A stretch of 39,601 bases of DNA from a virus: positions 1 to 39,601 of IMG/VR virus record IMGVR_UViG_3300031977_002119. The stretch is one strand, 5' to 3'. The number at the start of each line of letters is the position of its first letter. Positions within the stretch are counted from its first letter, which is position 1. The notes below the pieces were generated by a model. It worked only from the letters and a program-made list of their open reading frames with translations, was not told the origin of the DNA and did no database searches. This document shows, piece after piece, positions 9,099 to 39,123 of this stretch. The position numbers were made by a program, and so were the translations under genes.

Positions 9099-10310
9099 TT
9101 AAATTTTGTTCATTAACTCTTTGTACGTAAGGGCTTGCTCTCGGCCGCCCACTGTGTATTTAAATACATATTTTTTAGTGAACCGACCTTCTATAGTATT
9201 GCCATCAGCGTCCACAGCAGGTTGCACAAATACATATGGGGTGTATTTAACGCCCTTTAGATTAAAAGGTGTCCCTATACCGTATTCATTGCCGCTTCCG
9301 TCCTTCTTTAGATTATTATCCGCAGTTACAATAGCATCGTCAATTCTTAATGTGTATTCGCTTTCAGTGGTTCCGCTACTGCCACCGCCACTGTTTCCGC
9401 CTCTTGGCTTAGACGCTGCTACTTTTTCGCGGTACCCCTTTTCAGCTACAGTTGTATATGCGTTCATAATCGCATTGATCGTAGCTTCGCGAGTACCGTC
9501 AATGTCATTAGGGTCGTATACCACGTCGATTTTAAGGCCGTCTAAATCAAAGTCAGTAGATAACAGCGACTGCAGTGTTTTGGGGTTCTGTAATGTAGCT
9601 TTAAGCTCGTTACGTACCATACTTGCGTTTATATCTGTTAGCTTTGCGCCTGTCGTGTACAGGGAGTTTGCTCTCTTCATAATCGCATCTGCCGTTGCAA
9701 AGTCCTTTAACAAAGGCCCATCATATTTGCTGTAATCTACAATGTTTCCGTTGCCAAGGTCAAATCCTAAGTTACCACCATCGGTAACCGTCATGCCGGT
9801 AGAGGCATCGCCAAAACCATAAATAGTACTAGCCGTTAACAAGTCATCGGCGGAATTGCCGCCTGAGAATTGTCCGGCTTCATGCATGTCTGCGTAATTA
9901 GTACGCGCTTCTTTGTATGCTTTAACTTGGCCTGCTAGGTTTTGAATTGAGTTGTTAACAGCGTTCATCTGGTCAACATACACTTGGTACTGTGGATCAG
10001 AGTAGTCGTTGATTCTTGCTGCAGCACTAGCTGCTTCTGAATATACAGCGCGCTGCTGTCGTAAATAACCCAACAATGCACCTTGCTCGTCATTACTCAG
10101 CCCCGTAAGATCACCGAGGTCTTTCATGTTTGCAATGCGCGCGTTTGTCTTAGATTGTATTTCTTGCTTTTTAGCCTCTTCTTTAGCGTAGGCTTCTTGC
10201 ATAACTGCCGCGGTGTTGGATTTCAGAGGAGTATAGGCACTGCCATAATCGTAAAAACCGCTTGTTTGCCCTACTAAAGTTTCACCTTTTATTAATGCTT
10301 CGTTCGCCAT
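9099..10310 (-). CDS. Probable internal/ejection virion protein (403 aa)
   Basis: Starts at the ATG at 10308-10310 (MANEALIKGETLVGQTSG). The frame could extend six codons upstream to a GTG at 10328, but that would overlap the preceding gene, while the ATG leaves a four-base gap. The N-terminal half is helical and rich in Ala, Gln and Glu, with an early coiled-coil-like stretch (about residues 30-60). A Gly/Ser-rich linker follows near residue 300-315, then a beta-rich C-terminal domain ending in REQALTYKELMNKI. It lies between a 210-aa Ala/Gln-rich protein and the giant protein, the position of internal or cargo proteins in podovirus-like modules. No named family recognised; the role rests on context. 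Confidence 0.7.
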   Translation of the reverse strand: MANEALIKGETLVGQTSGFYDYGSAYTPLKSNTAAVMQEAYAKEEAKKQEIQSKTNARIANMKDLGDLTGLSNDEQGALLGYLRQQRAVYSEAASAAARINDYSDPQYQVYVDQMNAVNNSIQNLAGQVKAYKEARTNYADMHEAGQFSGGNSADDLLTASTIYGFGDASTGMTVTDGGNLGFDLGNGNIVDYSKYDGPLLKDFATADAIMKRANSLYTTGAKLTDINASMVRNELKATLQNPKTLQSLLSTDFDLDGLKIDVVYDPNDIDGTREATINAIMNAYTTVAEKGYREKVAASKPRGGNSGGGSSGTTESEYTLRIDDAIVTADNNLKKDGSGNEYGIGTPFNLKGVKYTPYVFVQPAVDADGNTIEGRFTKKYVFKYTVGGREQALTYKELMNKI

Positions 10311-17843: not shown

Positions 17844-19232
17844 TCAAGGAGTTTTCTTCAACAACACGAAGTTGTTAGCAGCTTGAACACAGATAGTACG
17901 CTCAGATAGCATGTGAACGTTCATCTCATCAGCGTCGCTGGTGTAGTTACCACCAACAGAACCAGTCACCCAAGACTTCATGCGACGATCGTCAGCTTCA
18001 GAAGCGCGGTAACGGATGTGCAAGAATGGACGAGAGATGTTCTTACCAAGAGTCTGATCGTATACTGTAGAAGTACCTGCAGGAACAAGAACACCTTCTA
18101 CATCACCGATAGATCCGCGAGTAGTTGAGTCGTTCAAGTATTTCCAGTCAGTCTTGTAGAAGTCGTAAGAACCACGACGGAAACCAGAGAAGCCTAGGTT
18201 CAATGCCATGTCTTCAGAGTTTTCGAATACACCGTAAGATGTACCGCCAGCTCCGTAAGAGTTTTGAGCAGCAAGCATGTTGTCAATGCTCAAAGAAGTA
18301 GCACGATCCAAGAACATCATGTTCTCTTCGATAGCACCTTGCTTGTCAAGTTCAGCCAAGATAGTGTCGAACTCACCAAGACCAGTACCAGCACCGAAGT
18401 CAGAGTCGTTGTAAACAAGACCACGCTCTTCCAATGCAGAGAACAAACCTTGAGTACCGCTCAACTCTTTACCGTCAGCAGCAGTGAACGCAGTAGCAGC
18501 TTTTTCAGCTTCAACCATGCTCATTTCCAAGTAGTCTTCGAAACGTAGACGAGCTTCGTGCTCAGACTTCAAGTACCACAAGTAACCGCCAGTACCAGCT
18601 TCAGTAGTAACTTCAACCCAACCGATCTGAGCAACGTCAGAACCGTTTACGTTGTACTTATCACGAAGGATAATTGGCTTGTTGCTGAAAGTATCGAAGC
18701 TAGAGTCGATAGAGTTTCCTGCGTTAGCAGAACCTTTACCGTACTCAGAACCGAATACAAACAAGTTTACACCAGTTTCGCCCTGCAAGTCAGCAGGTAG
18801 AGTAACAGCGGCACCGTAGCAACGAATTGCAACAGAAACACCATTAACACCGTGTACGTAAGCCTTAGCAGTAACATTACCTTTAGAGATAACAACTGTC
18901 ATACCAGCGCCCAACAAGTGGTTAGCAGGCATTGTAAGTGTATCACCAGCAGCATTTGTAGCTACGTTATCGTACGCGATGTGCAAACGACCTTGCTCAG
19001 ACCAAACAACTTGGTCAGAAGCCATAGGCATTTCAGCACCTACCATACGCAAGAAACCACCGATAGTACGGTTTCCGTAACGCTCTACTTCTTTTTCGTA
19101 TACCTCAGGCAAGAATTGCTGAGTAAAGTCCATGTCAGCCACAGACAAATAGTTATCACCGAACAAGCCCTTGATTGGACGTGGAGTCAAGTGATTCAAT
19201 TGGGCACCAGTGCCCGCAAAAGATCCAGCCAT
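17844..19232 (-). CDS. Major capsid protein (462 aa)
   Basis: Placed directly after the scaffold candidate and between portal and connector genes, the standard position of an HK97-fold major capsid protein. The sequence has YLSVADMDFTQQFLPEVYEK near the N-terminus, the word EARLRFEDYLEMSMVEAEKA in the middle (a conserved-looking segment in capsid proteins of this phage group) and a beta-rich C-terminus ending ERTICVQAANNFVLLKKTP. Codon use stands out: the Arg codons I checked are CGT or CGC, with many AAC, GAC and TTC codons, unlike the AGA-rich mix elsewhere, as expected for a very highly expressed gene. A stable hairpin follows the stop. No cleaved prohead domain can be defined by eye. Confidence 0.85.
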   Translation of the reverse strand: MAGSFAGTGAQLNHLTPRPIKGLFGDNYLSVADMDFTQQFLPEVYEKEVERYGNRTIGGFLRMVGAEMPMASDQVVWSEQGRLHIAYDNVATNAAGDTLTMPANHLLGAGMTVVISKGNVTAKAYVHGVNGVSVAIRCYGAAVTLPADLQGETGVNLFVFGSEYGKGSANAGNSIDSSFDTFSNKPIILRDKYNVNGSDVAQIGWVEVTTEAGTGGYLWYLKSEHEARLRFEDYLEMSMVEAEKAATAFTAADGKELSGTQGLFSALEERGLVYNDSDFGAGTGLGEFDTILAELDKQGAIEENMMFLDRATSLSIDNMLAAQNSYGAGGTSYGVFENSEDMALNLGFSGFRRGSYDFYKTDWKYLNDSTTRGSIGDVEGVLVPAGTSTVYDQTLGKNISRPFLHIRYRASEADDRRMKSWVTGSVGGNYTSDADEMNVHMLSERTICVQAANNFVLLKKTP

Positions 19233-25096: not shown

Positions 25097-25371
25097 CGTG
25101 AACGTTTTTCAGCGAACCCGGAGAATGTTTTCTTTTCTTCCTCTTTTGCTGGTTTGCCATCAAGCAATCGCTCTTCCTCTTCAATACGCGTTAATATTTC
25201 AAACGCGTCAAATATTGCCAGTTTTTTAGTTGCAGCGGCATTTTTTAAGCGGTCAGCAGATACATCATCTTCCGTGTTGGTAATGATTTTCTCCTCAGCG
25301 ACTTTTATAAGTTCCTCAACCGCCTTGCGACCAGCTTGGATTATACTCTTCTTCGTCTCCTTGGTACTCAT
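25093..25371 (-). CDS. Terminase small subunit candidate (92 aa)
   Basis: Short, highly charged helical protein: Lys-rich N-terminus (MSTKETKKSIIQAGRKAVEE), a central DDVSADRLKNAAATKKLAIFD segment, and an acidic then basic C-terminus. It immediately precedes and overlaps the large terminase gene (ATGA), the usual place of a small subunit, and its size and helical nature fit. It overlaps the upstream GroES-like gene by 56 bases, longer than other junctions here, but this is the only ATG in the frame. No helix-turn-helix can be assigned with certainty. It could alternatively be a small packaging accessory protein. Confidence 0.6.
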   Translation of the reverse strand: MSTKETKKSIIQAGRKAVEELIKVAEEKIITNTEDDVSADRLKNAAATKKLAIFDAFEILTRIEEEERLLDGKPAKEEEKKTFSGFAEKRSR

Positions 25372-25906
25372 ACGCGACTGTTATTTTATTTATAGGGATT
25401 CGATATAATCTTTCTCCCTCAATATTAAATTCATATTCCATTCCCGGTGTGTACCCAACTAAATCACCTACTTCAAAATTATCGCTAGCAATCTTTACTT
25501 TGCCTATTAGCGGTCTCTCGTGATTAAGAGAGAACATATCTTTTTCCACAAGTGGCTTAACGAATGTATAACCAGGAAGGGCATTCCAAGTATTGTTTCG
25601 CTTATAAGCGTATATCTGTTCAGGGAATACAAAAAACATATCGTCTTTATAATATGCTTTTCCATTTTTTTCTTTCCCACGTACGTCATAAAAACGTCTA
25701 AATATATTATGATGAACTATAACCTCATCACCTACCTCTAAACCAGTTTCACCGATTGCTGGTAGCGCTTTAACGATGCCTACTCGGTTTACGTATTGAT
25801 GGTTTTGAAGTTCTGTGTTTAAAAGCAATTTTCCGTCGCCTACTGCTTTTTCACTTACAGTCCTTCCACCTTTGGGTTCAACAATAACGTTGTATAAGCT
25901 ACGCAT
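25316..25906 (-). CDS. Tandem GroES-like domain protein (196 aa)
   Basis: The ATG at 25904-25906 (MRSLYNVIVEPKGG) is preferred; the frame can extend to a TTG at 25927 only by overlapping the upstream gene further. Two beta-barrel-like halves follow the cochaperonin pattern. Domain 1 (about 1-103) has NVIVEPK, a glycine-containing loop GDGKLLLN at 23-30, GIVKALP and LEVGDEVIV (VGD 58-60). Domain 2 (about 110-182) has GYTFVKPL, GKVKIA, FEVGDLVGY (VGD 146-148), MEYEFNIEGERLYRIP and ITVAYEYQG, which lines up with the GroES second half (VGD..., K-D-E-...-I...I-A-I-V). Chloroplast Cpn20 is a known tandem cochaperonin of similar size. Whether this one binds chaperonin is unknown; the tail EEEYNPSWSQGG is extra. 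It sits next to the terminase genes. Confidence 0.65.
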   Translation of the reverse strand: MRSLYNVIVEPKGGRTVSEKAVGDGKLLLNTELQNHQYVNRVGIVKALPAIGETGLEVGDEVIVHHNIFRRFYDVRGKEKNGKAYYKDDMFFVFPEQIYAYKRNNTWNALPGYTFVKPLVEKDMFSLNHERPLIGKVKIASDNFEVGDLVGYTPGMEYEFNIEGERLYRIPINKITVAYEYQGDEEEYNPSWSQGG

Positions 25907-27741: not shown

Positions 27742-28095
27742 TTAGCAATTCCATCTACGACGAGCCGCACGACCGCGCTCGCTTGTCCAGCTCTTTGAGC
27801 GCGCACAAAATGATTTGCGACGCTTAGCTGCTTTACTATCAGGATCAAGCTTAGACGGTGGTGTTGTTACCGCAGTCTTAAGATTGCTTCCTGGATTATC
27901 TTTTTTGTATTTTTCTACACCTTTTTTAGACATACCACCTCCAGCAGCCGCTCCGGTGCCGCCGCCTTCTTTGACTTCGTTGTAGTTCCCTTCTGACTTC
28001 TTGCGAGACGGTGCATCACCTTTAGCCTTAGCTGGTGATGAGCATGCTTGACATCCGCACTTTTTAAAAGGCGAGTTGTGTTGTAAGTAAGCCAT
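27742..28095 (-). CDS. Small Cys/Arg-rich protein with SP-x-K motifs (117 aa)
   Basis: Begins MAYLQHNSPFKKCGCQACSS and carries two copies of the SP-[FA]-K motif (residues 8-12 and 20-24) with three cysteines between them. A low-complexity Gly/Lys middle follows, then a basic C-terminus KRRKSFCARSKSWTSERGRA with AARRRWNC. The terminal SFCARS...AARRxWxC block is a recurring signature in small marine phage proteins. Paired cysteines at both ends suggest metal binding, which is inference. It belongs to the cluster of SP-x-K proteins at 30.1-27.7 kb. Confidence 0.6.
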   Translation of the reverse strand: MAYLQHNSPFKKCGCQACSSPAKAKGDAPSRKKSEGNYNEVKEGGGTGAAAGGGMSKKGVEKYKKDNPGSNLKTAVTTPPSKLDPDSKAAKRRKSFCARSKSWTSERGRAARRRWNC

Positions 28096-28096
28096 A

Positions 28097-29719
28097 TTAT
28101 TTGTTTTTAAAGTATCCTTTCTTCAACGCCGACTTAGACTGCATACCCACGTTACGGCCAAACGTCATTTTAGCAGGCGTTGCAGCGTCACGAGCCTCTT
28201 CGTAGGCTGCGCGGTTTGCTTGGTCACGTGGAGATACTAAAGATTCACCCTCGGGCAGTTTACCTCGCTTTTGTTGGCGAGCTGTTTTTCTTTCGTATTT
28301 TCCACGCTGCTTGCGATCCTTTTTAACCTTGCGTTCCATTTGCTTGCCAGTCATATCTTGACCTTGGAACAATGGATCATTTTGCAAAGTAGCATCTTCC
28401 TCAGCTTGATTAAGAGCGTCAATTTCAGATATAGCGTTATTGTAATCCTTGTTCTTTTCAAGCTTGCGCGCGCTTTTCTCTATTTTCTTATTGTCTTTTT
28501 CAAATTCCTTCAAAGCTTTTCTGCCGCGCTTTTCTACACGTCTTTCAGCGCCAGGTGTAATAGCAGCTTCGTTACCGTCAAGAACAGCGCGTTCAGCGTT
28601 TTCTCTGTTCATTTGTCGACCCTCGCGTGCTTGTTTCGCGTTGTCAACAGTGGTCTGCAAACGATCGCGCCAAGTTTTTCTTTCCTTTGGCGTCTCGGCA
28701 GCTTCCGTTGTTTCAGGTTTTGTAGTTTTAGGCGTATCAGCTTTAGGCGGGATTGGAGTTAAATCACTTCCTTTTCCACCTTTTTTCTTATCGTTAGCAG
28801 GAGCATCTGCGCTAGCGCCGCCCATTGCACCAGCTCCCTGGCTAGCTGCCATTGCATCAGCTGCAAAATTTGCTGTTTCTCTACTTTTCTTACGGGCATC
28901 AATACCTGAATGCCAGTTTTGAGGTTCAGCTGCATCGCCTGCTTTAAATTCAGACTTTCCGCCTAGATTTTTTTCGTAATTTTCTAATTGAGTGCCGCCA
29001 GTTGTAGTGCCTGCTTTATCTAAAGTAAAGTCTTCTACTGTTTCAACATTTTCTCCGCGCGTGGCTAATCGTCTGTATGCGTTTTCAGCCGCTTGTGCTT
29101 CCTCTACCCCTTTCAAGCCGCGCTTAGTTTCGTACAGGTCTCTTTCGTAGTCTGATAAATTACCGCGACCGGTTTGAACATCACGCATTCCTTTAAAAGC
29201 ATCGCGTAGGCCAGCGCCCTCACGACGCAATGTTTTAAACTCCTCAACCCCAATCTTGCGTAGTTCACGACGAGCATCCTGGCGACCTTCGCGAACTTGC
29301 TGATCAGCAATACGGTCTGCCCAGCGGTTTTCCCACGGAGTTGTTTGCGTTTGTGTTCTTGTGTATTGTGGAGTGTACTCAGTACGCTTTGTTTCGCCTG
29401 GTGTCCCAGGGATAGTTTTTGTAACCGTTTCTTCTTTGTATTGGTAACCAGGATTATTTCCGCGCCACGCCTCAGCGGCGGCGTGAAACTCGTTGTAATC
29501 TTTATATTTTGACTGAACATTGTCATTATTAGCGTCCCATGCCGCTTGGTCTGAGCTATATAGATTTCTTTTTGTTCTGACAGTTTCGTCTACCTGTTGA
29601 TCAGGTGTACCGTCGGTGCTTTGGTCATTTACGATTGCTATGTTACCCGCAGCCTTGGTAGCCTGCTTAGCCGGGCTGTTAGGCGCGCTCTTTACTCTGT
29701 TTGTAATAGGTTTATTCAT
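28097..29719 (-). CDS. Charged, low-complexity SPAKQ protein (540 aa)
   Basis: Long, highly charged protein, mostly Arg, Lys, Glu, Ala and Gln, with probable coiled coils (about 150-215 and 370-470). The N-terminus MNKPITNRVKSAPNSPAKQA contains both a PIT[QN] word and SPAKQ (15-19); the C-terminus ends SALKKGYFKNK, a possible degenerate copy. The middle (about 295-345) is Gly, Pro and Thr-rich and probably disordered. No enzymatic motif. It is the largest of the SP-x-K proteins and may be an internal or linker virion protein; composition also allows a DNA-associated role. Family not recognised. Confidence 0.65.
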   Translation of the reverse strand: MNKPITNRVKSAPNSPAKQATKAAGNIAIVNDQSTDGTPDQQVDETVRTKRNLYSSDQAAWDANNDNVQSKYKDYNEFHAAAEAWRGNNPGYQYKEETVTKTIPGTPGETKRTEYTPQYTRTQTQTTPWENRWADRIADQQVREGRQDARRELRKIGVEEFKTLRREGAGLRDAFKGMRDVQTGRGNLSDYERDLYETKRGLKGVEEAQAAENAYRRLATRGENVETVEDFTLDKAGTTTGGTQLENYEKNLGGKSEFKAGDAAEPQNWHSGIDARKKSRETANFAADAMAASQGAGAMGGASADAPANDKKKGGKGSDLTPIPPKADTPKTTKPETTEAAETPKERKTWRDRLQTTVDNAKQAREGRQMNRENAERAVLDGNEAAITPGAERRVEKRGRKALKEFEKDNKKIEKSARKLEKNKDYNNAISEIDALNQAEEDATLQNDPLFQGQDMTGKQMERKVKKDRKQRGKYERKTARQQKRGKLPEGESLVSPRDQANRAAYEEARDAATPAKMTFGRNVGMQSKSALKKGYFKNK

Positions 29720-29724
29720 AATGC

Positions 29725-30060
29725 TTATGCTTCTACTTCTGTGTCCAATTTATCGACATTATCATCGTTCAAATTTTCAGCTCCAGCTTTCTTAGTTGGG
29801 TCGCTTTCCGGTGTAGTTTCATCCTCATCCGGCGGTTCAGGGTCGTTTTGCTTTTTTGCTTGTACGGGATTGTGACCCGCTCCTAGATCGTGAAACTGTT
29901 TAGCAGCAATACTTTCTCCCATTACGAGTGCTTCGTTAAGTTTTAGCGGAGAGCCCTTTGCTTTTTGAGTGATGGGGGTAGCGGCGGAATTTCCTTGTCG
30001 GGTAGCACCTTCTGCACGCTGATGTAACCCCCATTTTTCTTTATTCATTTTAAATGCCAT
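29725..30060 (-). CDS. Small SPLK-motif protein (111 aa)
   Basis: The ATG at 30058-30060 (MAFKMNKEKWGLHQRAEGAT) begins just after the stop of the upstream zincin-like gene; a longer frame to 30084 overlaps that gene. The N-terminal half contains TPITQKAKGSPLKLN (29-42), the fullest version of the shared motif, followed by a helix (NEALVMGESIAAKQFHDLGA). The C-terminal half is acidic and Pro/Thr/Glu-rich and probably disordered (DPEPPDEDETTPESDPTKKA). Function unknown; the layout is a motif-bearing anchor with an acidic tail. Confidence 0.6.
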   Translation of the reverse strand: MAFKMNKEKWGLHQRAEGATRQGNSAATPITQKAKGSPLKLNEALVMGESIAAKQFHDLGAGHNPVQAKKQNDPEPPDEDETTPESDPTKKAGAENLNDDNVDKLDTEVEA

Positions 30061-30061
30061 A

Positions 30062-30409
30062 TCAACTTTTTTTATACGCCTCATCTTCCCACTCTAAATT
30101 GTGTGCGCCTTCTTGCATTGTCAAACGAGAGTAAACACGTGATGGAGACTTAGTGTCTTTTTTCCAAATAACTTCGCCGTCGTTGTACTGTAAGCGACCT
30201 TGCTGCATTTGCTCAAGGTGTACTTTTTCGTGTTCAACAGCGTCTTTCTTTTGTAGTGGCGATAAACCTTTATTAACAAAAATAGTTCCGTCTCGATTAG
30301 CCTCAGCCATAATACCTGGATCTAAATCTTTTTCGAATACAGGCGTATCATGTGTTGAGGTCTCTTTATCGATACCGAACAAAGTTGTTTTGTCTTTAAG
30401 CCTAAACAT
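30062..30409 (-). CDS. Small zincin-like putative metallopeptidase (115 aa)
   Basis: Start chosen at the ATG at 30407-30409 (MFRLKDKTTLFGID), which makes a TAATG overlap with the 44-aa gene upstream; a GTG at 30415 is the only longer option. The sequence carries AVEHEKVHLEQM with HEKVH at 60-64, the HExxH zinc motif of gluzincin/metzincin-type peptidases, and a downstream WEDEAY whose glutamate could be a third ligand. The protein is short for an active peptidase but similar minimal zincins occur in phages. No signal peptide, so it would act in the cell or in the virion. It lies inside the SP-x-K gene cluster. Confidence 0.62.
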   Translation of the reverse strand: MFRLKDKTTLFGIDKETSTHDTPVFEKDLDPGIMAEANRDGTIFVNKGLSPLQKKDAVEHEKVHLEQMQQGRLQYNDGEVIWKKDTKSPSRVYSRLTMQEGAHNLEWEDEAYKKS

Positions 30410-30543
30410 TAGCACTTTATCTTTGCAGGCGCACTGAAGTCTACAGGCTTCTTGCCTTGCGCATCAATAGTCACCTCTTGATTAACAGGTGCTTTCGATG
30501 CATCAGCTTTAGCGCGCTGAGTGATTGGCATACATTTTTTCAT
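30409..30543 (-). CDS. Very small PITQ-motif protein (44 aa)
   Basis: A 44-codon frame starting at the ATG at 30541-30543, in ATGA overlap with the upstream gene and in TAATG overlap with the downstream gene. Both junctions and the exact fill of the gap make it a credible gene despite its size. It reads MKKCMPITQRAKADASKAPV and ends FSAPAKIKC. The PITQRAK word (6-12) repeats the PITQKAK of the 111-aa protein at 30060-29725. Two cysteines, at positions 4 and 44. Function unknown. Confidence 0.55.
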   Translation of the reverse strand: MKKCMPITQRAKADASKAPVNQEVTIDAQGKKPVDFSAPAKIKC

Positions 30544-30980
30544 CGCTCTTTGTCTTTAATCATATCGTCTATAGCTTTGTTATAGACTTTATCAGTATAA
30601 CTTTTGTTTTTGTAGAAAGCGCTTGTGCTTCCAATCGGGATATCTTCTTCGCCAAGCATGATCTTGTACATGCGCGTAATTAAACGCTGGGCTTTTAAAG
30701 AAGTCTTGAATATACTATATTTGATTGTAGTCCTATTGCGATGACGCCAGACGTCAATCCAGCCATCTCTTCGCAGGCGCTCCCACCGATCTTTATCCCA
30801 TGAGTAGGTGTATGTGCCTTCTATAAAATCATTACGTGTAAAATGTTTTTTGCAATCAAGATATATCAGTAGCTCGAGGTCTGCGTCTAATATATCGTAA
30901 GTTTTACAGGCCCATTTCCTAACGAGCCTGTAATACTTAAACAAATTCATTTCACGTAGATCTGAAGGAGTTAACCTCAT
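30540..30980 (-). CDS. Probable winged-helix protein (146 aa)
   Basis: Basic protein (MRLTPSDLREMNLFKYYRLV) with a helix-helix-helix-hairpin layout: LELLIYLDCKKHFTRNDFIE, then RWERLRRDGWIDVWRHRN and the strand pair RTTIKYSIFKTS, then a long C-terminal helix AQRLITRMYKIMLG. This resembles MarR-type winged helices, so DNA binding is likely but not shown. It overlaps the GroES stop by ATGA, so it is co-translated with the chaperonin genes. A late-gene regulator or a packaging accessory are both possible. Confidence 0.55.
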   Translation of the reverse strand: MRLTPSDLREMNLFKYYRLVRKWACKTYDILDADLELLIYLDCKKHFTRNDFIEGTYTYSWDKDRWERLRRDGWIDVWRHRNRTTIKYSIFKTSLKAQRLITRMYKIMLGEEDIPIGSTSAFYKNKSYTDKVYNKAIDDMIKDKER

Positions 30981-31234
30981 TCTACGATTACAACGTCACC
31001 AACAGTGATTACGTGGTAGAGTTCATCATTCCATTCGATACCGTGTCCTGCGTGTTTATCGTATCGGATTGTATCTCCGACCTCAACCCCGATTACTAGC
31101 GGCCCACAGCTGATTACCTCAGCTTTTAGGTATCTAACGTCACTGTCTTGTTTTTCGGTCAGCTCTAAGCCGGCTACTTTTTTCACCGGTTCTTTAAGCT
31201 TCTTTATTACGATATAATTATTTACTGCTTTCAT
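30977..31234 (-). CDS. groES: Phage co-chaperonin GroES (85 aa)
   Basis: Single GroES domain, slightly shorter than the about 97 aa of bacterial GroES. Visible signature: N-terminal NNYIVIKKL, a mobile loop region containing VAGLELTEK (20-28) in place of GGIVLT, KAEVISCGP, VEVGDTIRYDK (VGD 52-54), then ELYHVITVGDVVIVE at the C-terminus. GroES caps GroEL rings for ATP-dependent folding. The start overlaps the GroEL end by 17 bases and the stop overlaps the next gene by ATGA. The order GroEL then GroES is the reverse of the usual bacterial groES-groEL operon. The mobile-loop change suggests co-adaptation to its own GroEL, which is inference. Confidence 0.88.
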   Translation of the reverse strand: MKAVNNYIVIKKLKEPVKKVAGLELTEKQDSDVRYLKAEVISCGPLVIGVEVGDTIRYDKHAGHGIEWNDELYHVITVGDVVIVE

Positions 31235-32786
31235 ATACTCTCTGATTTGAAACTACGGCGTCCGCAGAAATAATTGTTGTCGCTACACTCACTGCATTCT
31301 TTAATGCTGTCTTTGTTACAAGCACTGGGTCAATAATACCGTTTTTGATCATATTAACCTTTTTGCCTGTTACCGCGTCGATCCCCCAGTTCTTTTTAGC
31401 GACTGGTTCTGTAAGCACAATATTAGCATTGCGCATAATAGTTGCGAACGGTTCGCGGATTGCTTTAAGCAAAGCCGTGTATCCAGCGTTCTTGCTTTTT
31501 GTTTTGTTTGATGCGTGAAGCAGCGCAACACCACCGCCAGGTACAATACCCTCTTTAAGTGCTGCTTGCGTTGCGTAGATTGCATCTTCAACACGGTCTT
31601 TCTTTTCTTTTAGCTCGACCTGCGAATCAGCCCCAACGTAAATCAAACCAACCTTACCGGTTAACATCGATAGGCGCTGTTCTAGCTTGCCCTTGACGTA
31701 TGGATTGGTTTCCGTAGAGATCCTTTCACGCACACTTTCGATACGCTCCGTGAGGAGATCGCGGTCGGCTTCAACCTGCATAACCGTGTTCTTCTGGTTC
31801 GTCACAGACTTAACTGCTTCACCCAAAACATCCGGACTAATTAAATCTAAATCATCGCCAAGCTCTTCGTTAATCACCTTCGCTCCGGTAAGTATTGCGA
31901 GGTCTTCGATAGTCTCTGTTTTCGTCGGCCCAAACCCTGGTAAATCTACGATGTTTACCTTGATATTCCCTTTTACTTTATTCGCTAAAAGCGTTTGGTA
32001 AGGTTGTTGCTCAACGTCTGCGATGATAAGCAGGCTTCTTTTGTTCTTTATAACGTGTTCTAGGACACTTTGTATCTTCCGAATATTAGGAATAGGGGAA
32101 GAGACAATAAGCACGTAAGGATTGTCTAAAACAGCTAATCCTTTGTCTTTATCGGTTAGGAGGTGCGGTGATTTAAGACCAGAGTCAAACTGGGTACCCT
32201 CAACAAATTCCACATACGTTTCATTCGTCTCGGATTCCTCCATTAAAACGACTCCGTCTTTTCCAACTCTTTCGAAAGCTTGGCCAATTTTTTCTCCAAG
32301 CTCTTTATCGTTGTTACAGCTAATGTAAGCAACTTGCTGTAGCATGTCACCCTCAACCGCCACACTGGTAGCATCAAGATAATGTACAATCTCTTTAGCA
32401 CAATCTTCAACGCCTTTTTTAATTTCTCTAATCGTGGATTCATCTACAATGTCGTTTAGTTCTTTTAATAAAGCGTGCGCGAGGACGGTAGCAGTAGTTG
32501 TACCGTCACCCGCTTCACGCACTGTATTCCGGGCAGCCTCTTTAACTAGAGTTGCACCGATATTTTCGACCGGGTCCATTAAGACTACGCTTTCCGCTAC
32601 GGTTACACCATCTTTTGTAATGACCGGCCGGCCCAGAGCGTCTTCGTAGATTACGCATTTACCTGAAGCACCCATAGTGGACTTCACTGCGTTCGCTAAC
32701 TTTTCGACGCCGGACATAATTTTAGTTCTTGCTTCATTGCCAAAGCTTAAATCCTTGACAATATCGCTCGGGTTATTAAATTCCAT
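31218..32786 (-). CDS. groEL: Phage chaperonin GroEL (522 aa)
   Basis: Group I chaperonin, full domain order present: equatorial (SFGNEARTKIMSGVEKLANA), intermediate and apical (VEGTQFDSGLKSP, PGFGPTKTETIEDLAILTGA), and the return equatorial part with GGGVALLHA. The catalytic/ATP residues match E. coli D52, D87 and D398: TKDG (D59), AGDGTTT (D94) and VEDA (D401). Apical-domain words differ from E. coli (LKSPHLL for YLSPYF). The protein ends soon after IISADAVVSNQRV and lacks the GGM-repeat tail. Phage chaperonins are known from some large phages and marine metagenomes and probably fold the phage's own capsid or tail proteins; the client here is not known. Confidence 0.93.
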   Translation of the reverse strand: MEFNNPSDIVKDLSFGNEARTKIMSGVEKLANAVKSTMGASGKCVIYEDALGRPVITKDGVTVAESVVLMDPVENIGATLVKEAARNTVREAGDGTTTATVLAHALLKELNDIVDESTIREIKKGVEDCAKEIVHYLDATSVAVEGDMLQQVAYISCNNDKELGEKIGQAFERVGKDGVVLMEESETNETYVEFVEGTQFDSGLKSPHLLTDKDKGLAVLDNPYVLIVSSPIPNIRKIQSVLEHVIKNKRSLLIIADVEQQPYQTLLANKVKGNIKVNIVDLPGFGPTKTETIEDLAILTGAKVINEELGDDLDLISPDVLGEAVKSVTNQKNTVMQVEADRDLLTERIESVRERISTETNPYVKGKLEQRLSMLTGKVGLIYVGADSQVELKEKKDRVEDAIYATQAALKEGIVPGGGVALLHASNKTKSKNAGYTALLKAIREPFATIMRNANIVLTEPVAKKNWGIDAVTGKKVNMIKNGIIDPVLVTKTALKNAVSVATTIISADAVVSNQRVYESSK

Positions 32787-32811
32787 TATATTAAATTAAA
32801 TTGTTGTGGTT

Positions 32812-33096
32812 TTATTCAAATGTCTTAACTACTTTCGGTCCTGTCGCGTATTCTAGCTTCTTCGTAAAATATTCAACTGAAGAATCAATTGCGCTTTCAG
32901 CACCTTCCATAGTTTCCCGGCGAGTGACATCATGCCATTGGTCTTCACCTAGGTTTAGTTCGGTTTGAAAGTAACCATTGGGTAATCGAACAATGCGCCA
33001 GTTTTTCTTTTCTGCCGCTCGCTTCCACCATGCGAGTTGTTCATTGCTTGGTTTTTGGCTTTCACCAAAGGTGGTTGATCGGTAATAAAACGTCAT
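32812..33096 (-). CDS. Hypothetical protein before groEL (94 aa)
   Basis: Begins MTFYYRSTTFGESQKPSNEQ, then a Trp-rich helix (AWWKRAAEKKNWRIVRLPNG), a short strand pair YFQTELNL, and a helix with SAIDSSVEYFTKKLEYATG. No catalytic motif or membrane segment. It is the first gene after a 62-base gap with an inverted repeat (33108-33140) and lies 25 bases before groEL, so it may share a transcript start with the chaperonin genes. Family unknown. Confidence 0.55.
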   Translation of the reverse strand: MTFYYRSTTFGESQKPSNEQLAWWKRAAEKKNWRIVRLPNGYFQTELNLGEDQWHDVTRRETMEGAESAIDSSVEYFTKKLEYATGPKVVKTFE

Positions 33097-33107
33097 TTGG
33101 TATAAAT

Positions 33108-33140
33108 GTTTTAGGTTATGTTATATATATTACCTAAAAC
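33108..33140. promoter_or_regulatory. 9-bp inverted repeat upstream of chaperonin cluster
   Basis: GTTTTAGGT and its perfect inverse ACCTAAAAC are separated by 15 A/T-rich bases, within the 62-base gap between the holin-like stop and the 94-aa gene. There is no U-run on either side, so an operator or promoter-linked site is more likely than a terminator. No clear Bacteroidetes -7 element was found. Confidence 0.35.
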
Positions 33141-33158
33141 GGGTGGTTTTTAACGCAT

Positions 33159-33569
33159 TTACTTGCGCATCAGCTTGGTTAAGTCCTTAGTTTTTCCTTC
33201 TGAACCCATGGACGAACCAAACCAGTATCCGTATACGTCACCGAGTGTTCTAAGAAAGAAACCGCTAAAGGTTGTAATCAATCCCTTTTGCACCTCAGTA
33301 AGCGTGGACCAATCAATAATGTCTGTGAAAATAGCCAGACCAAGCCCAATAGCAATAACAAGTGTAATATAAGTAAGTACATCAGGCGTAGACTTGTTTT
33401 GCCCAAGCTCACGAGCTTCTTTACGATCTTGTACTTCACTTGCATATGCTTCTTTAATAAACTCTTTTTTCTCTTCCGGTGTGTCAATAAACTTGTCGGC
33501 CACTTCAACTGCTTTGTCTAACAAAGGAATCGCAGATGCGCCAAAAAGCTTTTTTAAAGGATTAGCCAT
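33159..33569 (-). CDS. Holin-like membrane protein (136 aa)
   Basis: The ATG at 33567-33569 (MANPLKKLFGASAIPLLDKA) overlaps the upstream small gene by eight bases; the longer frame from 33623 would overlap more. After a charged helix (PEEKKEFIKEAYASEVQDRK) it has a clear transmembrane stretch (VLTYITLVIAIGLGLAIFTD) and a second amphipathic membrane segment (LITTFSGFFLRTLGDVYGYW) followed by WFGSS. This resembles three-helix holins of gene-transfer-agent and marine phage type. A holin opens the inner membrane for lysis, but no endolysin lies in this window, so the role is probable rather than shown. Confidence 0.6.
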   Translation of the reverse strand: MANPLKKLFGASAIPLLDKAVEVADKFIDTPEEKKEFIKEAYASEVQDRKEARELGQNKSTPDVLTYITLVIAIGLGLAIFTDIIDWSTLTEVQKGLITTFSGFFLRTLGDVYGYWFGSSMGSEGKTKDLTKLMRK

Positions 33570-33756
33570 TTGTTCTGTAGTATCTAGTGAATATTCTGTA
33601 TATACCTTCTTGAAGCTGGTCAATGTGTGTCACAGCATCGGCAGCTGAATCAAACTCTTCATTAAGGTTGCTTTCTATAAAAGGCGCCCAATTTCCGTTG
33701 TCTAGCAATACTGTGCCGTCTTCAACGTTTTCTATAAAGTACTTTACTGTTGTCAT
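33562..33756 (-). CDS. Hypothetical protein after tail fibre (64 aa)
   Basis: [20 protein letters not shown] starts by a TAATG overlap with the stop of the collagen-like fibre gene, a sign of translational coupling. It is a short mixed alpha/beta protein (FIESNLNEEFDSAADAVTHI) ending YRIFTRYYRTNG. A small fibre chaperone would suit this place, but there is no sequence signature for one. Confidence 0.55.
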   Translation of the reverse strand: MTTVKYFIENVEDGTVLLDNGNWAPFIESNLNEEFDSAADAVTHIDQLQEGIYRIFTRYYRTNG

Positions 33757-36077
33757 TATACAATTCTCATTACTGTCACAGCTCCACCATCACCGTTTGT
33801 TGAGGTTACACCGTGGTTAATAGCACCTGCGTGCAAGAAGGTTTCAAAAAACATGGTATCACCAGCATTTACAGTTACCGCAAAAGTAGATCCAGTTGTT
33901 GATTTATGCCCATATGTATGGTAACGGAAATACTGAATATTTGTACCACCCTGGATTGTACCCCCGTTTAGCTTTGCTGAAGCACCAAATGTTGAGCGGT
34001 TAGCATAATAGCTTTGCCAGTTAATGTTCCAAGATATGAGGTATGTACCAGCCTGGTTAAATATAATATTTGATTCGCCTGAAGGAGAAGTAGATGTAGA
34101 GCCGTTGATTTCTTGAGCTGCTAAAATAATAGGCTGTCTATTTGACTCGTAAACCACGCCTGTTTGGAAGTGGTATTTGTCAGGTCCATACATACTACCA
34201 TTCGTTCCGGCTGGACCCTGAGGCCCCTGCGGACCAGTAGACCCTGTACTTCCCGCCGGTCCTTGTGGACCAGTAGCCCCAGTATTACCCGCTGGACCTT
34301 GCGGCCCTGTATCTCCAACTGGCCCTTGTGGACCTTGTGCACCAGCACTTCCTGCTGGCCCTGCGGGACCCTGTGGACCCGTATCTCCAGTGTCACCTTT
34401 TGGCCCTTGCGGCCCTTGTGGCCCTTGTGGACCCACGGCTCCGGTTGCCCCGGTAGAACCTGCAGCCCCCGTTGCGCCGGTAGCACCTCGTATGTTACCT
34501 AAGTTGGTTTCGCCATATTGATCGTTAATAAGAACAAGGTCGTACCCTTCCATTCTTGCTTCAACAAAGCCAGCGCCATCACTTCCGTTGCTCCCGTTGC
34601 TGCCAGCGGGGCCCTGCGGACCGACATCTCCCGTGTCTCCTTTAGCCCCCGCGGGACCTGCGGGACCTTGAGGGCCTTGACTTCCGTTACTACCCGCTGG
34701 CCCTTGTGGTCCAATAAAATCAGGATAGTTATCAGGTGTGAACTCTTCGGGTCTTACATAACCTGCATCAGCGTGATTTCCCCAGCCGTATGCTGTATTC
34801 CAATTAGTAGAATTACCACCTGTTGTAGTAATTTCTCCTGTAACGCTTATACCTGTAGATGTTGTAGATAATTTTGAACCTGAATTATGGTACAATCTTG
34901 TCGCACCATTCTCATCACGCTGAAGTACCCAATCATTGTTCAGGTCATCGTAAAGACCAAGAGTGTTACCATCCCCCATTAAAGAGAAGATGATTTCGTT
35001 AGATGTATTAGAGATTTGTAGACCACCCCAAGTTGAAGTAGAACTCTTAATCATCAACAAGTCTGAACGGTCAGTAGACTCAGTTAATGTTGCGCCACTA
35101 CCTACTGCAATAGATGTTACTGATAATGCAGAAGGAATGCTTGTTAAATAGTTACCTGCATCCTGTTTAGCAGCAATGAGAGGTATGACCTCATCATCAA
35201 TTCTTTGATGTATAGAAGACTCTACTGTACCGAGTTCGGTGTCAGTTGTGTATGAGGATGGTATAGAAGTAAGGTAGCGACCATCAAGGTCTACTGAGTT
35301 ACCTCCGCTAATAGTTAAAACTCCATTAGTCCCATTCCAAGAAAGTGTTTGGCTATCAGTCTCAGATGTTAGGAAACCTTGGGAGTTAACCCAAGATTGT
35401 GTAGCATATCCTGCAGAACCGTGATTACCCCACCCATATGCAGTCTTAAAGTTTTGAATATTGGTTTTGGTAATTGCCTCACCATCCAATGTAAGTTGGT
35501 CACCTCTTAGATATGCAGTTTTTCTTGTAGACCATCCGCCTGACCAATTCCCTGTATGAGAATTAATCTCAAGACCTTGTTCTGCATTTAAGTAGATGTA
35601 TTCGTTAGTTTGTCCTGTGGCATAAGAGTGCGACTCACCTGCGTTAAGTACAAGTTGCTGGCCATTACCTTTAATATAAGCGTTAATGGTCAAAGCACCT
35701 GTTAATGTACCTCCGCTTAATGGTAGGTACGAGTGTGTGTGGGATGGTAGGCTTGTGAGGTATCCTGCTTCAGCGTGATTGCCCCATTCAAAAGCCTGTA
35801 CACCTTTTGCTGTATCGGCAGCAGTACCGTATGATGATGATAAGTTAGGGATTCTTGCAGCGTTAAGAGTCCCTGAAGTTATTTTACTTGCACTAAGATT
35901 CGGAATACGAGAAGCGCTAAACGAACCGCTATTTACTTTACCTGCATCAAGGTTAGGCATTCGTGAAGCGTTGATTGTACCGCTTGTGATTTTTGAAGCA
36001 TCTAGGTTTGGAATATCAGATGCAGCGATATTCATTGAGCCTTCTACATCAACCCCATTGAGAATTTTAATAGCCAT
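33756..36077 (-). CDS. Trimeric tail fibre with collagen-like repeats and C1q-like tip (773 aa)
   Basis: N-terminal region is built from repeats of the type [18 protein letters not shown] (about residues 23-75), then fibre repeats such as [12 protein letters not shown] and [18 protein letters not shown]. Two blocks of Gly-x-y collagen triplets follow (about residues 455-500 and 525-625, with many GPQGPAG units), separated by a non-collagen insert. The C-terminal 135 residues form a likely jelly-roll head: [17 protein letters not shown] and [20 protein letters not shown] resemble C1q/TNF-type trimeric tips. Collagen triplets need trimerisation, which the tip can seed. Role: receptor-binding fibre. 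A strong hairpin precedes the gene by 17 bases, and the 64-aa gene follows. Confidence 0.85.
34205..34497 (-). repeat. Collagen-like Gly-x-y repeat block
   Basis: The C-terminal of two collagen blocks in the fibre gene, roughly 33 consecutive Gly-x-y triplets rich in GPQ, GPA, GDT and GAT units. The smaller block is at about 34590-34712. Repeated codons make near-identical DNA units, so recombination and length variation are expected. Confidence 0.8.
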
Positions 36078-36093
36078 AAAATACTTTTTGATT

Positions 36094-36124
36094 AAAAAAG
36101 AGGGAGGAACCCCCTCCCCCCTCT
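36094..36124 (-). terminator. GC-rich hairpin with T-run between fibre genes
   Basis: On the minus strand GGGGGAGG pairs with CCTCCCTC around a five-base loop and is followed by TTTTTT, a good intrinsic terminator shape. It lies 16 bases after the stop of the 391-aa fibre gene (36141) and only 17 bases before the ATG of the collagen fibre, so readthrough or an internal promoter must supply the downstream gene. Confidence 0.72.
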
Positions 36125-36140
36125 GTTAAGAATTTACAAA

Positions 36141-37316
36141 TTATGCAGCACCAACGGCAGCACACATATAGTCTACGTCATTCTCCAAGAAGGCAAATGC
36201 TACGCCACTACCATCTTGAGTGATGTCGGTAAGAACAACTCCACCTGTGTTAGTGTCATAAATTTGAATATTAGCGAAACTGTTGATTCCCGAAGCAGTC
36301 AAATCAATTGGAGTGTTTGCACCCGCACCTGTAACCACTACCTGTGCAAATACAGGAATAGTTGGCTTGTTAGTCAGGTTGTTGTAGTTGCGGTAGTAAG
36401 CCGAAGACTGACCGTCCAATAAGTCTGCATCAAGACCTGAACCAGCACCGTCAACGGTTTTGATTTTAGCCAATACATCAGCAGCGGTGTATGCAGATGT
36501 GTTCAACTTGTTACCTAATGCAGTAGTGATTGTGGTAGCAAAGTTAGGGTCATCATTCAACGCAGCAGCAAGTTCATTCAATGTATCCAATGCAGCAGGG
36601 GCAGAAGATACAACACCTGCAACAGCAGTGTCTACATAAGAAGTAGAAGCAAGTCCTGCAAGGTCTTCTAAGTTTGCTTTTAAGTCAAGAATCTCAGGAA
36701 GTTGGTCAACCTCCGAGATGTCGTGAGTGTGAGCAGAAGGAGCAAAAGTACTTGGGATGCCTGTCAATGAAGAGTAAGCACCGTTGAAGTTAGAAGTACC
36801 TGCGCCAATTACTGTACGAACCTCAGCAGCGGTAATACCTGTTACAAGAGCAGGTGTGCCATTGTTATCACGAATAGCGGGAGCGTAAGTCGCAGTTGCA
36901 CCTGGCTCAACACTATTTAAGTGGTCAAGCAGTTCCTGAGTAAAGTTAATCTGAGTAAGTCCGCCATCACCAACACTGTAAGTAGTATCAGTAAATACAG
37001 CGTTAGCAGGCACATTAGTCAATACCTGAGAGTCGTCAACCTTACTGTTCAACGCTGTCTGCAACCCTGATACATTGCTAATTGCAATAGTACCAACGCT
37101 GACTACGCCTTCACTTTCAGTAATTGTTGTTCCATCAGCGGTTAATCCTACACGGACAAACCCTGTTCCATTGTGTACAAACACAGACCTTGCAGCTGTG
37201 TTATAGTAGATGTGTCCCGACCCGGCAGTTTCGGGGTTGGTTGCTAAGTTTTGGAGCGAGAAATTCTGTACTTCATTTCCGCCCAAATCTAAATCAACTA
37301 AATATTTTAGAGCCAT
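36141..37316 (-). CDS. Tail fibre protein (391 aa)
   Basis: Begins MALKYLVDLDLGGNEVQNFS, a common start of Bacteroidetes phage fibres, then a glycine/strand pattern (SGHIYYNTAARSVFVHNGTG). Fibre repeat words appear: SAHTHDISEVDQLPEILDLK, and near the end LLDGQSSAYYRNYNNLTNKP. A helical segment around 215-265 (ALDTLNELAAALNDDPNFAT) is typical of fibre shaft insertions. The C-terminus is a small beta domain (FAQVVVTGAGANTPIDLTAS). It is one of a series of fibre/receptor-binding genes and is followed by a hairpin terminator. Confidence 0.8.
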   Translation of the reverse strand: MALKYLVDLDLGGNEVQNFSLQNLATNPETAGSGHIYYNTAARSVFVHNGTGFVRVGLTADGTTITESEGVVSVGTIAISNVSGLQTALNSKVDDSQVLTNVPANAVFTDTTYSVGDGGLTQINFTQELLDHLNSVEPGATATYAPAIRDNNGTPALVTGITAAEVRTVIGAGTSNFNGAYSSLTGIPSTFAPSAHTHDISEVDQLPEILDLKANLEDLAGLASTSYVDTAVAGVVSSAPAALDTLNELAAALNDDPNFATTITTALGNKLNTSAYTAADVLAKIKTVDGAGSGLDADLLDGQSSAYYRNYNNLTNKPTIPVFAQVVVTGAGANTPIDLTASGINSFANIQIYDTNTGGVVLTDITQDGSGVAFAFLENDVDYMCAAVGAA

Positions 37317-37334
37317 TTTAGTTTTTTGTTTTTA

Positions 37335-38042
37335 TTAATTAAGAAAAGCTTTTCCCTTAAAAGGGTATTTGAATCGAACGAACAATTCGTTCACATTTAC
37401 GTAATCTACGTCGCCTGCAACCATTGTGCCTGCAGAATCCACGATAGTAACCGAAGGGTTTTTACCTAGATTATGTACAATGTGCCATTCAACGTCTGAA
37501 GTGGATTGGATATGAGTATAATTTAAATCGCCACCGACTACACTATATAGTGCAAAACCGATACCCTTCTCGTCTGATAACACGCCACTAGATGTAACAT
37601 GCGATAATTCAGCGACAAAGAAATCAGGTTCTGTCGGATGCGCTGTCCACGATGTAAGGTTGAATATACCAAAGTTATTCATTTGGTCCATTCTAGCCAA
37701 GATGATCTTGTTACCGACCATCTCTTCAATCAAAGGCGTCGTGTCACCACCTTTAACATTGTATCTGCTAAATACCAATTCGGTAACGTTGGAGAAGGAT
37801 GTTAAGTCCCCGCCGAAGTTTTGAAACGATACCGAGCCTAGGTCACGACCTGTGGTCGATTGCACAGCTTGGAACACGTAGTTAACCTGCCCGGCAATAC
37901 CAATATGACCTTCGTTACTCATCCAGTCAGCGATATTGCCTAGACGGAAATTTTTAGTAACAGCACCATTAGAGTCGGTACCTAGTACCTTATCGCCTCC
38001 AGTTATGGTATTGTCATTTTGATATGTATTTATACGGGCCAT
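37335..38042 (-). CDS. Fibre or spike protein with conserved C-terminal motif (235 aa)
   Basis: N-terminus MARINTYQNDNTITGGDKVLGT, then DSNGAVTKNFRLGNIADWM, a typical start of short fibre/adaptor proteins in this phage group. The C-terminal half carries the widespread phage fibre ending: WHIVHNLGKNPSVTIVDSAG followed by YVNVNELFVRFKYPFKGKAF and LN. That motif is found at the ends of many unrelated tail fibres and spikes and probably forms a trimeric beta tip. It sits upstream of the other two fibre genes, one base after the preceding gene. Confidence 0.78.
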   Translation of the reverse strand: MARINTYQNDNTITGGDKVLGTDSNGAVTKNFRLGNIADWMSNEGHIGIAGQVNYVFQAVQSTTGRDLGSVSFQNFGGDLTSFSNVTELVFSRYNVKGGDTTPLIEEMVGNKIILARMDQMNNFGIFNLTSWTAHPTEPDFFVAELSHVTSSGVLSDEKGIGFALYSVVGGDLNYTHIQSTSDVEWHIVHNLGKNPSVTIVDSAGTMVAGDVDYVNVNELFVRFKYPFKGKAFLN

Positions 38043-38043
38043 A

Positions 38044-38322
38044 TTATGCTACGTGGTAGTTTGCACCACCTTCTTTTTTCGTTCCTTTACCGTCGTTACC
38101 GCGGTTTGCAGCAACAGACTTAAATCTGCCGTCCTTGTGGTCGTAATCCTTGCCAGCTACATCTTGTCCGTTCTTTTCAGCTTTGCGACGTCTACGTTGA
38201 GAGTCAGCTTTCTTTGCACGACGTGCTGGAGTTTTAGCATATGCCAGGTCTCTCGCCGCTTTATCGCGACGGGCTTGTGCAGATAGCTTCTGCTTCAACG
38301 GAGAGTTTGGCATTTCAAACAT
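38044..38322 (-). CDS. Small basic SPLKQ protein (92 aa)
   Basis: MFEMPNSPLKQKLSAQARRD carries SPLKQ at 7-11 close to the N-terminus, followed by an Arg/Lys/Ala-rich helix (ARRAKKADSQRRRRKAEKNG) and the words GKDYDHKDGRFKSVAANRGN with a Gly/Lys tail. The DYDH-DGRF-NRG block recurs in small marine phage proteins. The strongly basic nature would suit DNA or capsid-wall binding; function unknown. An alternative ATG at 38313 would keep the motif. Confidence 0.6.
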   Translation of the reverse strand: MFEMPNSPLKQKLSAQARRDKAARDLAYAKTPARRAKKADSQRRRRKAEKNGQDVAGKDYDHKDGRFKSVAANRGNDGKGTKKEGGANYHVA

Positions 38323-38327
38323 GCTTA

Positions 38328-38705
38328 TTAACCGCGTAGTTTATTAGCCTTAGCTTCTAGCTTGTCGGCACGCTTTTCTTTGCGTGTTTGTTTTTTAGAC
38401 TTGGCCTCCGGCTTTGCCACAGGCTTTAAGTTATTAGCACCTTCAGGTGTTGGCACAGAGGGCTTTTTAGCCGGCAATTCAGTCATTGCATGCGGAATGC
38501 GTCGCACTTCAGTACGCGGCTGTGTTATCTGTCCAACAGCACTACCTATACCTGCTGCAGCTGAGCCTTGCCCGCGTCTGCCTGAGCCTGCTTGTCCTAT
38601 AAGCGCTCCTGCTCCCTCAGCCTTTGGGCCCCTACGTCCAATTCTTGTTTGCTTCAAAGGAGACTTAGCAGCTCCAAGGCCGTTTGGGCCGATTCCTTTT
38701 CTCAT
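38328..38705 (-). CDS. Small basic SPLKQ protein (125 aa)
   Basis: The start is the ATG at 38703-38705 (MRKGIGPNGLGAAKSPLKQT), one base after the stop of the upstream gene; a longer frame overlaps that gene by about 100 bases and is unlikely. SPLKQ is at 15-19. Low-complexity Gly/Ala/Arg/Pro/Lys sequence follows, ending in a basic helix KQTRKEKRADKLEAKANKLR. Its N-terminus resembles that of the upstream 138-aa protein (MKRKGVGPRALGSPFKQ), so the pair may be partial paralogues. Function unknown. Confidence 0.58.
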   Translation of the reverse strand: MRKGIGPNGLGAAKSPLKQTRIGRRGPKAEGAGALIGQAGSGRRGQGSAAAGIGSAVGQITQPRTEVRRIPHAMTELPAKKPSVPTPEGANNLKPVAKPEAKSKKQTRKEKRADKLEAKANKLRG

Positions 38706-38706
38706 T

Positions 38707-39123
38707 TTACTTTTTGTTTTTCTTATTGTTGTTAGATATTTCCTCAGCAGCGTATTGGGCACCTCCGATGACCGCGTCGTCACCAAACATGCCTCCAATT
38801 GTTGCAGCCGCACCTTTCCAGGCTGATGGCTTACTCTTCATTACGTTAAAAGCAGGCTTAGCACCTGCGGATATGCCTTTCAGCACTGCGCCCCCTATTA
38901 CAGATGTCTCAATAGTGTTGTCTACCTTTATAGCACCTGTAGCCTTATTGGCCATACGATCCTCAAAAGCACTTGCTTGGTCTGCATAGTGTGCGTCAGA
39001 ATACTTATTATAGTCGCTTTTAGCGGCCTCAGACTTCCACGCAGGGGGTAAATCAGGGTATTGCTTGTTTGTTTGCTTAAACGGGGACCCAAGCGCTCTA
39101 GGTCCTACACCTTTTCTCTTCAT
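38707..39123 (-). CDS. First late gene: SPFKQ protein (138 aa)
   Basis: MKRKGVGPRALGSPFKQTNK carries SPFKQ at 13-17. A helical Lys/Ser/Ala part follows (AAKSDYNKYSDAHYADQASA), then a glycine- and alanine-rich hydrophobic central to C-terminal part (VIGGAVLKGISAGAKPAFNV and WKGAAATIGGMFGDDAVIGG) that could associate with a membrane, and a Lys/Asn tail. It is the first gene after the 478-base leader. No enzymatic signature; probably a virion component. Confidence 0.6.
   Translation of the reverse strand: MKRKGVGPRALGSPFKQTNKQYPDLPPAWKSEAAKSDYNKYSDAHYADQASAFEDRMANKATGAIKVDNTIETSVIGGAVLKGISAGAKPAFNVMKSKPSAWKGAAATIGGMFGDDAVIGGAQYAAEEISNNNKKNKK

Follow-up and report, generated by a model that had tools for sequence, protein, structure and literature searches.

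A short peptide, SPxK, recurs in small accessory proteins of a marine podovirus and probably belongs to a lineage-specific cargo signal, for docking, processing or both, on accessory proteins of the virion interior. It was studied in IMG/VR record IMGVR_UViG_3300031977_002119, positions 1 to 39,601; this whole stretch of 39,601 nucleotides is called the window below. A sequence-only reading had listed seven sites of the peptide in six proteins, and every residue position it gave was correct (Table 1). Genes were called with a hexamer-based caller trained on this phage group (a script of our own for the relatives, whose contigs are partial), and all six motif-bearing genes of the window scored as coding.

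Motif counts were compared with shuffles preserving the composition of each protein (2000 for the window). SP[LFA]K[QK] was present in five proteins of the window, against 0.05 sites expected, and the looser SP[LFAMISVT]K at seven sites in six proteins, against 0.89; neither count was reached in any of the 2000 shuffles. Two companion motifs had been overlooked by the sequence-only reading: PITx[KR], present in three proteins of the window (0.17 expected), namely those of 540 and 111 amino acids (aa) and an unlisted 40-aa open reading frame (ORF), and a MAFK[ML] start on the 111-aa protein. As a control for bias, loci were also picked by terminase similarity alone, and families were built by BLAST of motif-masked proteins. 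Of the 144 families in these loci, 18.9 had SP[LFAMISVT]K (2.9 expected; no more than 8 in any of 300 shuffles), 8.5 had SP[LFA]K[QK] (0.2 expected) and 10 had PITx[KR] (0.3 expected). MAFK[ML] starts were found in 7.7 families, against 0.26 expected. In an untargeted count of 'ab.c' patterns over the terminase-selected loci, rare-residue patterns took the top places; among those shared by nine or more families, AF.M (MAFKM), IT.R (PITxR) and SP.K stood out, SP.K having overall rank 21. The recurrence of SPxK is thus confirmed beyond chance, both against shuffled sequences and in relatives, two of the three points on which the sequence-only reading had said it could be refuted.

Residue specificity was examined in a wider set, made of the terminase loci plus 77 loci reached via the 111-aa family. 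Here SP[LFAMISVT]K occurred in 27.8 families (5.5 expected) and at 326 sites (20 expected). TPxK, PSxK, APxK, K.PS and SPxR were at or near chance in this set, and SP[KRED]K was depleted (5 against 13 expected). The motif requires S, P and K, with a small or hydrophobic x; context counts gave A, F, L, S and M at x, followed by Q, K, M or I. Proteins of at least 650 aa showed no enrichment (24 sites, 26.8 expected), in agreement with the earlier remark that capsid, portal and giant proteins lack the motif. The 326 sites were encoded by 149 different 12-mers; therefore, selection acts mainly at the protein level, and a DNA-level recombination site at SPxK was ruled out by this diversity. All 28 module-bearing contigs tested carried a window-type terminase, indicating a tag characteristic of this lineage. 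In the cultured outgroups sampled, SPxK was no more frequent than expected.

The tags stand at termini and at junctions, and they are exchanged while the protein bodies are conserved even without them. PITx[KR] lies upstream of SPxK, most commonly by 2-3 or 30-35 residues, and a C-terminal SPxKKxYFK is a recurrent arrangement. The six proteins had been described as unrelated, which holds for their bodies; the 138- and 125-aa proteins nevertheless share a KG[IV]GPxxLG element, and KG[IVC]GPxx[LI]G also precedes SPxK in proteins of 109 aa (L018) and 136 aa (L205). Among zincin orthologues, MAFK, PIT and SPxK substitute for one another at the N-terminus (MAFKL, SPFKK or SPITQNAK). The DUF6321 module starts as a free-standing MAKTAAW or, in the window clade, as SPAKKTAAW. 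SPAK also marks the joints of shuffled mini-modules: L178 reads [CWEGY]-SPAK-[IRKAL]-SPAK-[SYCARS], the last module differs in L184, the middle one differs in L171, and L180 has none. The core of the 111-aa protein after SPLK matches the N-terminus of a 409-aa protein (E 4e-5 in the window, 1e-6 between relatives), which is encoded beside a 210-aa virion protein and the giant gene. This N-terminus is conserved, yet predicted to be disordered in a model of a homologue; a fold search of the PDB with that model gave no match, the disordered N-terminus being its only useful yield. The evidence is weakest for the 92-aa protein: its untagged homologues start M[AG]QKLS, the window copy reads ..SPLKQKLS, and among eight homologues the window copy alone has an N-terminal SPxK. 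Searches for direct relatives of the 138-aa and 540-aa proteins and of a 155-aa protein of L018 found none.

The 117-aa protein allows a direct comparison with T4-like phages. It is a member of DUF6321 (PF19846; 44.4 bits, cut-off 28.5), a domain that forms the body of the protein, is widespread among marine phages and looks like a head-internal payload. A start resembling the T4 capsid targeting sequence (CTS), such as MKTFEQF or MITLKEFIVE, was found in 17 of 76 DUF6321 ORFs of other viruses (0.4 in shuffles). These starts were typed by pattern (N-terminal M-x-x-[FY]-x-x-[FY] with an acidic end), which L276, among the 17, matches only weakly. All 17 had [LIV]xE within 10 residues before the DUF6321 module (Fisher p 3e-14), whereas none of 18 window-clade DUF6321 proteins had the CTS pattern. 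A T4-type S77 prohead protease was present in 4/4 CTS-type contigs above 75 kb and in 0/13 window-clade contigs, all of which are fragments; no S78 prohead protease was found in window-clade contigs either. In one pair with 58% identity, L018 (MAYKQEPKSPVLK-RCWEGY...GSCAK-SPAKK-TAAW) and L318 (MKSFKTYITE-RCWPGY...GSCVK-EEEQIDEV-AAW), SPAK aligns opposite QIDE, in place of the L/I-x-E site. The DUF6321 copies of HTVC010P, HTVC028P and S-CRES3 had no SPxK tag; among the DUF6321 proteins compared, the tagged N-terminus is particular to the window clade. Other starts recur on this module in further virus groups: RGxGRA/RGxG (L264, L265, L268, L270, L289, L309, L312), MRRYFQKGS (L258, L291, L303, L306) and MRxxYxxGGxVKKS (L260, L261, L302). 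Such recurrent tags may be further lineage-specific cargo codes. Neither the motif strings nor DUF6321 gave a relevant match in the open-access papers searched.

Two families, and the module that the 111-aa protein shares with the neighbour of a virion protein, link the motif indirectly with virions. Homologues of the 92-aa protein in the phi38:1 and Calle phages are annotated as structural. The 210-aa family (window 10315-10947) can be aligned with gp99 of phi38:1 and with proteins of the elemo and Panino phages whose annotation is virion structural; seven of its lineages, mostly without the module, have an N-terminal SPx[KRN] (SPAK, SPLK twice, SPLR, SPFN, SPNK and SPTK). The pooled alignment of this family was too divergent for a scan of the collection.

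Table 1. Motif sites and associated features. Positions are those of the window; for features of other phages the loci are given instead.
Feature	Position or loci	Strand	Remark
SPFKQ, residues 13-17 of 138-aa protein (gene 38707-39123)	39073..39087	-	coding by hexamer caller
KGVGPRALG element, 138-aa protein	39088..39114	-	directly before SPFKQ
SPLKQ, residues 15-19 of 125-aa protein (gene 38328-38705)	38649..38663	-	coding by hexamer caller
KGIGPNGLG element, 125-aa protein	38673..38699	-	before SPLKQ
SPLKQ, residues 7-11 of 92-aa protein (gene 38044-38322)	38290..38304	-	abuts conserved QKLS body start
40-aa ORF starting MPITQRAK	30409..30531	-	PIT tag only; counterparts in same place in G002, L161, L185
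115-aa zincin-like protein (HExxH)	30062..30409	-	for starts of orthologues see text
TPITQKAK tag, residues 28-35 of 111-aa protein (gene 29725-30060)	29956..29979	-
SPLKL, residues 37-41 of 111-aa protein	29938..29952	-	SP-K invariant in family alignment
NEALVMGES.. module, 111-aa protein	29857..29937	-	BLAST similarity to N-terminus of 409-aa protein
NKPITNRVK tag, residues 2-10 of 540-aa protein (gene 28097-29719)	29690..29716	-
SPAKQ, residues 15-19 of 540-aa protein	29663..29677	-
SALKKGYFKNK, C-terminal end of 540-aa protein	28100..28132	-	relatives: SPMKKGYFKGK, SPMKKNYFK, SPLKKNYFKR
SPFKK, residues 8-12 of 117-aa DUF6321 protein (gene 27742-28095)	28060..28074	-
SPAKA, residues 20-24 of 117-aa DUF6321 protein	28024..28038	-
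N-terminal segment of 409-aa protein (MANEALIKGE start at 10310)	10218..10304	-	counterpart of 111-aa module; predicted disordered in homologue
DUF6321 of T4-like marine phages with CTS-like start and [LIV]xE	L242-L246, L249, L253, L259, L273, L276, L281, L283, L285, L308, L316, L318, L233
210-aa homologues with N-terminal SPx[KRN]	G009, G012, G013, G015, G017, G018, G020

The terminase and portal of the window are similar to those of Cellulophaga phi38:1/Calle (Pervagoviridae), Flavobacterium elemo phages, Maribacter phage Panino and Manatee Spring podovirus, and its capsid protein has homologues in the same phages. The Crass_capsid Pfam model scored 15.5 bits against the capsid protein, below the cut-off of 27, so that this protein did not qualify as a Crassvirales capsid. 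Many closer relatives are known solely as environmental contigs. The N-terminus of the capsid protein (window 17844-19232) has LTPRPIKG, and relatives have PxK or PxKQT there, weakly resembling SPxKQ; the capsid N-termini of the window and relatives follow P-x-[KQ]. Mimicry of this capsid arm by SPxK was considered and remains a mere lead, the strongest forms (PxKQT) being found in relatives without the accessory motif. SPxK was not consistent in the portal and scaffold C-termini inspected. A 2944-aa protein (window 249-9083) combines a zeta-toxin-like kinase domain (PF06414, E 7e-15) with an HExxH stretch and looks like a polyvalent protein delivered alongside DNA. Genes for a GroEL and a GroES are present in the window (30977-32786 and 25316-25906), together with one for a second GroES-like protein adjoining the terminase. 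A 773-aa protein (33756-36077) with collagen-like Gly-x-y repeats (PF01391) is probably a tail fibre.

The simplest reading of the enrichment, the residue specificity, the terminal and junction positions, the exchange of tags and their replacement by T4-type signals on the same payload is that SPxK, PIT and MAFK would serve this lineage as CTS and LxE serve T4-like phages. Since SPxK is found where T4-type phages place head-loading signals, it is probably the family's own cargo signal. SPxK with PITx[KR] and MAFK[ML] would mark accessory proteins for entry into the virion, probably into the head interior, and for delivery with the DNA. A short peptide, presumably read by a prohead protein (scaffold, portal, internal complex or shell), would be joined to exchangeable small, mostly basic payload modules, and these payloads would act early in infection. 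The sequence-only reading had suggested three possible roles: packaging signal, capsid-interior tag and processing site. Enrichment and conservation support this in part, and docking and processing both fit the sequences: the junction position would favour cutting, the absent protease and the stand-alone N-terminal tags docking. Several points weigh against a cargo signal. SPxK is missing from the counterpart of the 92-aa protein in phi38:1, the origin of the GenBank 'structural' labels is unclear from the records, and the 210-aa protein is untagged in the motif-rich clade itself. The contigs compared are fragments. Isolated T4-like cyanophages with DUF6321 show no clear CTS, and their excess of [LIVAM]xE[AGS] is not significant in four of five; the T4 comparison therefore rests on environmental contigs and MH319741.

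The strongest competitor, which we nevertheless consider unlikely, holds that SPxK is purely a proteolytic site, cut after K to free mini-proteins as the counterpart of T4 [LI]xE, the targeting falling to MAFK/PIT. The exact coincidence of SPAK with the T4-like QIDE position agrees with this, as does its place between modules and directly before native module starts. However, the window clade has neither S77 nor S78 prohead protease (other protease types being possible), and the zincin also occurs in relatives without SPxK. SPxK could instead be an inert linker left from module shuffling and recognised by nothing; it is found at module junctions, and alanine codons at the sites are biased to GCT (0.77 against 0.49). 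The strict preference for S, P and K, the depletion of charged x, the occurrence at N- and C-termini without a joined module and the diversity of 12-mers, which speaks against a DNA-level joint, make this rather improbable.

The SPKK/SPXX motif of histone H1 and sperm histones binds the DNA minor groove. The tagged proteins likewise have Ser-Pro then Lys in a basic context and fit the loose SPXX form, so they might bind phage or host DNA. We give this very little credence: charged x is depleted here, and neither T for S nor R for K is accepted, the opposite of an electrostatic SPKK motif. Chance or low-complexity composition, suggested by the compositional bias of the proteins, was already refuted by the composition-preserving shuffles of the window and of the terminase-selected loci, and retains practically no probability.

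Among known systems, the closest to the proposed cargo signal is the CTS of T4 (IPI-III, gp21). In published work on T4, ten N-terminal residues are enough for packaging, gp21 cleaves behind L/I-x-E, and internal proteins are characterised as diverse defence proteins with only the CTS in common (PMC9026906, PMC3012670). Both systems have a short conserved peptide on variable payloads, with an N-terminal targeting part and a junction signal; the constant tag on diverse, exchangeable payloads is seen here in the family counts and the module shuffling, and DUF6321, a payload here, bears CTS-like starts and LxE in T4-like marine phages. Unlike M..F..F plus LxE, SPxK/PIT/MAFK is often present in several copies, also internal and C-terminal, and packaging is here inferred from sequence. 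The T4 tag pattern and the S77 protease were looked for and not found in the window-clade proteins and contigs compared, and in the L018/L318 alignment SPAK replaces the cleavage site; the signal would most likely work like the T4 CTS without being a member of that family. The Crassvirales phage phi-crAss001 is a distantly related podovirus of Bacteroidota whose virion also has space for ejected cargo proteins; in the passages of its description consulted (PMC10172136), this cargo consists of a few large proteins (gp45-gp50) and no common short tag is described.

A broader proposal, to which we give somewhat less than even weight, is that marine phages draw on a common pool of small payload modules and load them into heads by peptide codes of each lineage's own, payloads crossing between unrelated phages by a swap of tag and junction alone. 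The codes would be CTS plus LxE in T4-like phages, SPxK/PIT/MAFK here, and possibly RGxGRA or MRRYFQKG types elsewhere. If the cargo signal is real, it would provide a sequence rule to predict virion cargo in an uncultured, abundant group of phages, with candidates for injected effectors and for anti-defence proteins among this cargo, and a new tag testable for protein loading into podovirus heads. A likely role, as head-internal payload, would also follow for DUF6321 and the neighbouring families, which are common in marine viruses and have no known function.

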